Source: Berryella intestinalis
GTDB taxonomy: Bacteria > Actinomycetota > Coriobacteriia > Coriobacteriales > Eggerthellaceae
Direction of reading: 5' to 3'
Assembly (NCBI RefSeq): GCF_000814825.1
Contig: NZ_CP009302.1
Location: forward strand, 372,001-436,000
DNA: 64,000 nt
Part shown: piece after piece, positions 499 through 3,400 of the stretch
Layout of the letters: the number at the start of each line of letters is the position of its first letter
Numbering within the stretch: the first letter of the stretch is position 1
The notes under the pieces: generated by a model
Seen by the model: only the letters and a program-made list of their open reading frames with translations
Databases searched by the model: none
Told to the model about the DNA's origin: nothing
Made by a program: the position numbers and the translations under genes

Positions 499-3400
499 AT
501 GTTGCTGAATAAGCCGCGCTATATTTTAGCGCCCCTGCTCGCGCTTCTGCTCGCAGTGGGGATCGTAGTTGCGGGGGGGGGGGCGCGTGCATTCGCTGAA
601 TCTAAAGTCGTAGATGTCAGCATTACCAAGTTCGAGATTCAGAACTTAAGCCACAAAACCCAAACCGAATTCTTTCATTCTGATACTTTCTATATTGCTA
701 TGGATTGGGATGCCGGCTCAAGCGGGCATGATATTCATGAGGGGGACTATTTCGATGTCACCCTTCCCGATAACATGAAGTTTCCCTCAGGTACGACGGC
801 GAGCGATTTCGACCTCGCAGACTCAGATGGCAATGTCATCGCAAAGGCTCACGTGACGCCTGGTACGGGCGATGCGGGTGGGACTGTGCACGTTGTGTTT
901 ACCAAAGCAGTCGAGAACAAATACAACGTCAAGGGGACCATGTACCTCGCCGCTCGGTTCAACGAGAGTAAGATTACTGTCGATCAAGAGAACAAATTCT
1001 CCATTACGGTCAACGGAAACGTTGCAGGGCATACGAGCACCAAAGAGACGGGTGTCGTTGTCACTGGATCGAAGCCTCTCAAAGATGAATCCCTGATCAA
1101 ATGGGGTCAGAGCGTTCCCGATGATAAGCAACAGGCGCAGTGGGTTGCTCGCGTGAACCACGTCAAAGGGAACCTGACCAACGCCAAGGTTACCGATACG
1201 CTCGGAAGCTCGGGTATGACCTATATCCCCTCTTCTTTCAGGCTGTATAGGGTTGTCTTCGATGCGTACGGAGAAGTCTCTCAGGAGCTTGAAGCCAAAA
1301 CGGGAGACGAGTTGGTTGCAAGCGGCAAGTTGGTGTTTGCTCCCGACAACGCGTCGTTCACCTTGGATCTTGGGACAACGAACGAGCAGTATTACTTGCG
1401 CTACAAGTCTACGTACACGCCTGGCACCAAGCTCCTCAATCACTTGCGCCTTGAGTCGGGGAGCAAGGCTTGGGTAAGCGATGCGTCATACCAATCTGCT
1501 AACTCGGGCGGTAGCGCAGGTGGTGACCTCGCCAGCAAGATCAAGCTGACCAAGGTCGATGCAGACGATAACGTCACTCCGCTGAAGAACGCCGTGTTCA
1601 CAGTGACCAGACCGAATGGATCGACGTTCGAGCTGACGACTGGCGCGGATGGTACGGTCACCTCCGAGAAACTCGAGCAGGGCACCTACAAGGTGAAAGA
1701 GAAGACCCCGCCTGCGGGTTACGAGCTGAACGACGAGGAATACACGCTTGAGGTGACGTCCACGGGCGGTGCGCTCAAGACCATTACCGACAAGCCGATC
1801 AAGATCACCGTCAACGTGAACAAGAAATGGGTTGGTCCTGTTGGCTCTTCCGTTACGGTGCGTCTGCTGGCCGATGGTAACGACACCGGCAAAACGGTCG
1901 TGCTTGACGCGGCGGGCGGCTGGACGGGTACGTTCACCGATCTGCGCAAGTGCAAGCCCGACGGTAGCGAAATCAAGTACACCGTTACCGAGGCCCAGGT
2001 GTCGGGCGTCGATACGAACAAGTACTCCACCGCCGTTTCGGGCGACGCGGCTGCCGGGTTCACTATCACCAATAAGAACACCGAAACCGTGAAGATCCCC
2101 GTCACCAAGAAGTGGATCGGCCCCAAGGGCTCGGAAGTCACCGTGAAGCTGCTGGCCGACGGGGTCGAAGCTCCCGGCCAGGAGCTGAAGCTCAACGAGG
2201 GCAACGGCTGGAAGGGCGAGTTCTCCAACCTGCCCAAGTACAAAGCCGATGGCGCGGAAATCAAGTACACCGTTACCGAGGCCCAGGTTTCGGGCGTCGA
2301 TGCAAGCAAGTACGCAACCAACATCTCCGGCAGCGCTGCTTCCGGCTACACCATCACCAATAAGAACACCGAGACCGTGAAAGTCCCCGTGGAGAAGAAG
2401 TGGGTGGGTCCCAAGGGCACCGAGGTCACGGTGAAGCTGCTGGCCGACGGCACCGAGGTTCCCGGCCAGGAGCTGAAGCTCAACGAGGGCAACGGCTGGA
2501 AGGGCGAGTTCTCCAACCTTCCCAAGTACAAAGAAGATGATGGTGCGGAAATCAAGTACACCGTTACCGAGGCCCAGGTGTCGGGCGTCGAGGCCGGCAA
2601 ATACACCACCGTCGTCGCAGGTGATGCCGCTTCCGGCTACACCATCACCAACACCAACGGCGAGGCTGTCAAGGTTCCGGTGGAGAAGAAGTGGATTGGC
2701 CCCAAGGGTTCGGAAGTCACCGTGAAGCTGCTGGCCGACGGCACCGAGGTCCCCGGCCAGGAGCTGAAGCTCAACGAGGGCAACGGCTGGAAGGGCGAGT
2801 TCTCCGACCTGCCCAAGTACAAGGCTGACGGGTCCGAGATCGTCTATACGGTGACCGAAGCCCAGGTTGCGGGCGTGGATACGGACAAGTACTCCACCGC
2901 CGTCGAGGGCAGCGCAGCGAATGGCTACACCATCACCAACACCAACACGGAAACCGTGAAGGTCCCCGTCTCCAAGAAGTGGGTGGGCCCCAAGGGTTCC
3001 GAGGTCGTGGTCAAGCTGTTGGCCGATGGAACCGATGCGGGCAAGGAGCTCACGCTCAGAGAGGATAACGGCTGGTCCGGCTTGTTCGAGGACCTCCCCA
3101 AGTACAAGGCCGACGGATCTGAGATCGTCTACACGGTGACCGAGGCCCAGGTGTCGGGTGTCGACGCCGGTAAGTACTCTACCGCCGTTTCGGGCGATGC
3201 GGCTGCCGGGTTCACCATCACCAACACGAACACGGAGAAAGTCGATGTCTTCGGCGCTAAAACCTGGGACGACGACAACAACCGCGACGGAGACCGGCCG
3301 ACGTCCATTACCGTGAACCTGATGCGCGATGGCATTAAGGCCGACTCTGCGGTCGTCATGGCCGACGTCGCGGGCAACTGGGACTACAGTTTCACCGGCT

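Follow-up and report, generated by a model that had tools for sequence, protein, structure and literature searches.

The window, the 64,000-nucleotide stretch of Berryella intestinalis DNA that was analysed, carries near its beginning a gene for a large surface adhesin, with a long run of G within the codons of its signal peptide. The features of the locus, all on the plus strand, are as follows.

477-494, plus strand: purine-rich region upstream of the ATG at 499, inferred from the sequence to be the ribosome-binding region
499-4212, plus strand: gene for a 1237-residue anchored adhesin, a Cna-type MSCRAMM (open reading frame, Pfam, profile matches to FnbpA, SdrE and ClfA structures)
499-597, plus strand: signal peptide codons containing G11, with predicted cleavage between AFA and ES (translation)
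573-583, plus strand: G11 homopolymer, the proposed slippage switch (sequence)
597-599, plus strand: TGA in the frame with one extra G (read from the sequence)
611-613, plus strand: TAG in the frame with one G fewer (read from the sequence)
685-984, plus strand: Big_8 (PF17961) adhesive Ig-like domain, residues 63-162 (Pfam)
1087-1425, plus strand: Collagen_bind (PF05737) domain, residues 197-309 (Pfam)
1537-1773, plus strand: SpaA (PF17802) domain, residues 347-425 (Pfam)
1810-4068, plus strand: Cna_B (PF05738) stalk repeat array (Pfam)
4104-4209, plus strand: cell-wall sorting signal, consisting of MPRTG, a hydrophobic stretch and a basic RRREE tail (translation)

The layout of a Cna-type MSCRAMM was complete, from the signal peptide through the adhesive Ig-like domains and the Cna_B repeats, of which Pfam recognised eight stretches, to the sorting signal. 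A profile of the N-terminal region, built from five homologs, matched solved chains of FnbpA, SdrE, ClfA and RspB. As judged from its sequence, the gene product is an anchored adhesin of the MSCRAMM type. No sigma-70-like promoter was found in a search upstream of the gene. A pilus operon with a dedicated adjacent sortase, the arrangement known from Bifidobacterium breve, was considered and rejected because there was no sortase in the 64-kb window; sortase matches elsewhere in the genome lay at C1:954k, 1274k and 1781k, the last of them below the cut-off. Further along the window, three consecutive genes (9380-13855, 13866-20864 and 20920-27732) encode very large secreted proteins of 1491, 2332 and approximately 2270 residues. 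The first two products have CWB2 cell-wall-binding domains, and the second additionally has a subtilase domain and BspA-type leucine-rich repeats, while the third has a C-terminus similar to those of the other two and a GGGGGGCGGG stretch directly after its signal peptide.

The G11 tract was read directly at 573-583 on the sense strand and was in frame in the assembly. Its codons, GCG GGG GGG GGG GCG, lie within MLLNKPRYILAPLLALLLAVGIVVAGGGARAFA-ES. The original prediction had placed the tract where the signal peptide of a large CnaB adhesin is encoded and had held that either alternative frame stops at once; the position was exact, the product is a 1237-residue anchored protein, and the two stops were found as it described them, a TGA at 597-599 when one G is added and a TAG at 611-613 when one is removed. 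G11 has the features expected of a candidate contingency locus, namely 1) a long pure homopolymer in coding sequence, 2) a one-unit change that would abolish the product and 3) a location in a gene for a surface or host-contact protein.

The tract was the sole run of G or C longer than six in the window, where there were 401 runs of length 4, 111 of length 5, 17 of length 6, none of lengths 7 to 10 and one of length 11. When the window's genes were shuffled among synonymous codons, a run of at least 11 arose 0.03 times per shuffle. One alternative is that the glycine codons of the tract form a passive run, in which a conserved Gly-Gly-Gly-Ala ahead of the cleavage site happens to be written as three GGG codons, with no selected switching, and which would still mutate at an above-average rate. 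GGG accounts for 21% of the glycine codons in the window, so that three in succession are expected in about 1% of cases, and two homologs hold glycine at this position with other codons (VGGGA in L052 and AGGAA in L085). Among the dozen stretches of at least three glycines in the window, on the other hand, no other is pure GGG.

The distribution of such runs over the genome, a single contig of 1,967,093 bp that is 99.97% complete, was obtained by pattern searches. There were 15 G-runs of exactly 7 and one each of 8, 9, 10, 11 and 14, a tail that far exceeds the prediction from the decay over lengths 4-7. Only three runs were of length 10 or more, each of them on the sense strand and at the 5' end of a gene for a sortase-anchored adhesin with Cna_B domains. 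Besides G11, these are a G10 (C1:1921650-1921659), in frame in the signal peptide of a 1181-residue MPKTG protein (MKRYFESAGGGLRIVLAFALAFS...), and a G14 (C1:1030577-1030590), which precedes the probable start codon of a gene for an MPGTG protein by about 110 nt. Cna_B domains were matched in 11 genes genome-wide, and the 5' regions of these genes, taken as 420 nt each, cover about 0.2% of its length, so that three of three would fall there by chance with a probability of about 1e-8, a figure to be read with the class having been chosen post hoc. The shorter runs were distributed differently: the G8 is inside a phosphoglucosamine-mutase-like gene, the G9 (C1:1150625-1150633, minus strand; L012:5626-5634) is upstream of a luxS-like gene and ahead of a TATACT hexamer resembling a -10 element, and the G7 runs are mostly within ordinary genes, one of them lying 43 nt ahead of a further Cna_B adhesin gene.

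A passive glycine run leaves the position of all three long runs unexplained, one of them being non-coding, and it likewise does not account for the out-of-frame arrangements in relatives described below; it is considered an unlikely explanation. A slipped-strand switch accommodates both, and since all three long G-runs stand at the starts of sticky surface proteins, the bacterium very probably switches adhesins by copying slips. The genome would then hold at least three candidate loci of this kind, two with tracts in signal peptides (G11 and the G10 at C1:1921650) and one with an upstream tract (G14). The original prediction had concerned a lone tract; G11 itself was confirmed, but the unit of switching appears to be a multi-locus set that includes upstream tracts of promoter type.

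In the proposed switch, G11 would gain or lose one G during replication. Lengths that keep the frame would fuse the signal peptide to the adhesin and give a surface-anchored protein (ON), while at other lengths translation would end within approximately 5-10 codons of the run, so that a short piece of the signal peptide would be made and the adhesin would not (OFF). The G14 tract at C1:1030577, being upstream of the start codon, would probably act on transcription.

Domain searches found neither MutS_I nor NucS in the genome, while both searches gave matches in control genomes, in agreement with a survey in which every member of the Coriobacteriia analysed was without NucS and MutS-MutL (PMC5290159). 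Indels are not correctable by NucS, and loss of MutSL strongly raises their frequency (PMC8228993). Because MutS and NucS are absent, a slipped intermediate at G11 should escape mismatch repair, and slipped intermediates would be left unrepaired.

When the N-terminal protein was the only query, no relative was found in 84,980 genomes, while an alignment-based search found 25; one genome per species was available for comparison. The ortholog in B. wangjianweii is 46% identical to the window adhesin and has a G10 about 75 codons past the start, between the signal peptide with its linker and the first adhesive domain. Soon after the G10 the frame of the signal peptide (MKRRWHHLLGVLLAVSLVVPSG...) runs into a stop, and the adhesive body is in a different frame, as predicted for an OFF allele. 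A signal peptide in another genus contains a C9 that splits MRYPRKLLEGLRRTVAVCAVAALTFGVSVIT from a VWA/GBS104-like body, resembling a tip pilin, in another frame. The ON allele was thus seen in the window genome, the one strain of this species, and OFF alleles in other species, one of them in an ortholog and the other in an unrelated adhesin. These OFF frames could be assembly errors. Tract lengths in other strains were also sought in viral contigs by means of flank patterns, with no match. Two MSCRAMM homologs, in Bifidobacterium moukalabense (L104) and Olsenella phocaeensis (L107), have frames that end after about 170 residues; neither has a G or C run of 8 or more, so these are broken genes or assembly errors of which a long tract is not the cause.

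Most coding tracts observed were in frame, which counts against a switch. Those in relatives include a G10 within the signal peptide of a leucine-rich repeat protein (L144) and a G10 in each signal peptide of two tandem paralogs (L167, genome G006), beside which C10-C12 runs are clustered in an intergenic repeat (L167:4771-4901). Tracts lie upstream of three further homologs (L121, L122 and L095), and in a genus-mate (L033) a G10 is inside the 16-nt spacer between the -35 (TTGATC) and -10 (TATAAT) elements of a secreted-protein gene. In the AT-rich genus-mate G002, where frames were read by eye, 7 of 9 G-tracts of length 9 or more were in or adjoining genes for secreted proteins. The same genome has an in-frame G9 (L030:1501-1509) in a 281-residue open reading frame with a DNPPFS motif resembling that of DNA adenine methylases, possibly a switch of DNA modification. 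All six G-runs of at least 9 in G022, presumably Cryptobacterium curtum, were at the 5' ends of secreted-protein genes, as against 4 of 24 control sites, and the genes concerned include proteins resembling a pilin backbone and a Sgo0707-type adhesin. In Slackia exigua (L086 and L087), two MSCRAMM homologs are preceded at approximately 1.7-1.9 kb by a G10 and a G11, and one of the homologs also by a G9 at 470 nt.

Synonymous interruption of the tract in relatives had been named in the original prediction as evidence against a switch. It was found in part, in L052, where Gly-Gly-Gly is kept with mixed codons, yet at about 31% identity this homolog is too distant to decide the point. Because the codons are broken in L052, the G11 tract itself is not ancient.

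Homopolymers are error-prone in sequencing and assembly, so the length of G11 could be an artefact, and Penno et al. showed that real tract lengths in B. breve differ from those in the database, with a warning that published G-tract lengths may do so (PMC9187656). Against this, both coding tracts of the genome are in frame, pure long tracts recur at the same type of site across many assemblies and genera, and the tract would remain long even if its length were wrong by one or two bases. An artefact is therefore very improbable.

The occurrence of tracts near secreted proteins was assessed in 17 Eggerthellaceae genomes with a simple signal-peptide heuristic, the controls being sites of the same loci shifted by about 1 kb. 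Of 55 runs of at least 10, 23 were near the 5' end of a secreted-protein gene, compared with 42 of 216 control sites (p=8e-4), while runs of exactly 9 showed no enrichment there in these genomes. The enrichment across the family is modest and limited to runs of 10 or more, and its dependence on run length fits with selection for slippage. Larger GC-rich genomes had many tracts with no secreted-protein neighbour. Positions inside signal peptides taken by themselves were not enriched in the family genomes (10 of 122, versus 85 of 941 controls), and signal peptides are not put forward as a general hot spot for tracts; the heuristic is noisy as well, since 9% of control sites score in this test.

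Long G runs can also make the polymerase slip during transcription. Slippage at transcription or on the ribosome would give a constant mixture of full-length and truncated protein, with no heritable change in the DNA, and for B. breve, too, reframing was at one time an explanation under consideration (PMC9187656). The tract of B. breve proved to vary in length at the DNA level, and joined frames turned pili on (PMC9187656); moreover, the non-coding upstream tracts of the same genomes cannot act by recoding. Slippage of this kind is a highly doubtful explanation of G11.

Indirect observations give good support to the original proposal that G11 is a slipped-strand switch: 1) all tracts of 10 or more G are at the 5' ends of adhesin genes, 2) out-of-frame alleles are present in relatives and 3) neither MutS nor NucS was found. 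The tract is with good confidence a slipped-strand contingency switch between ON and OFF, of which the assembly shows the ON form; actual slippage, the switching of surface expression and its adaptive use are what we infer from these patterns. A wider proposal is favoured with more reserve, that in the Eggerthellaceae, a family without either of the known mismatch-repair systems, several independently switching poly-G and poly-C loci may control MSCRAMMs, pilins and other surface proteins through both reading-frame and promoter-spacer switches. No description of such switching in Coriobacteriia, including Eggerthella and Cryptobacterium, was found in the literature searched, most subscription journals being outside its scope.

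If true, a major gut and oral lineage has a phasome, none having been found described there, and a clonal gut population of Eggerthellaceae would be a mixture of cells showing different adhesins, with consequences for colonisation, immune recognition and the reproducibility of work with these bacteria. Genome annotations could label switchable genes as broken. Variation based on slippage would also be tied to a lineage without MutSL or NucS, in which the relation between the absence of mismatch repair and homopolymer instability is directly testable.

The predicted protein resembles the MSCRAMMs Cna, FnbpA and ClfA in its adhesive Ig-like domains, Cna_B stalk and sorting signal, but its motif is MPRTG rather than LPXTG, and ligand binding is putative. 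Poly-G contingency loci are familiar from Neisseria (porA, hmbR), Campylobacter and Helicobacter, where surface genes likewise carry poly-G or poly-C tracts, within the coding region or the promoter spacer, that slip reversibly. Those organisms are Gram-negative, the target proteins are unrelated, and they have dozens of long tracts compared with three here. Closer parallels come from other actinobacteria. In Gardnerella, tracts are abundant at LPXTG surface genes, within 300 bp upstream of them or inside them, and phase switching has been proposed, although these Bifidobacteriaceae have many more tracts per genome, with a median of 20 G or C tracts of at least 8 (PMC11287997). In B. breve, replication slippage was measured at the G-tracts of sortase-dependent pili, and similar tracts occur in other bifidobacteria (PMC9187656). 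The novelty that the original prediction attached to a switch in a gut or oral actinobacterium is consequently less than it implied, switching having been shown for B. breve pili and proposed for Gardnerella. In B. breve the tract stands at the head of a pilus operon that has its own sortase, whereas the window gene, for a Cna-type adhesin, stands by itself and has no sortase nearby; Berryella belongs to a different class, its tract is inside signal-peptide codons, and length variation was measured in B. breve and is predicted for G11. However, G11 and the tracts of B. breve UCC2003 (bbr_0113 and bbr_1889; PMC9187656) alike belong to gut actinobacteria and lie at the 5' end of the coding sequence of genes for sortase-anchored surface proteins, and for G11 too the length is predicted to decide whether the signal peptide is joined to the body of the protein.
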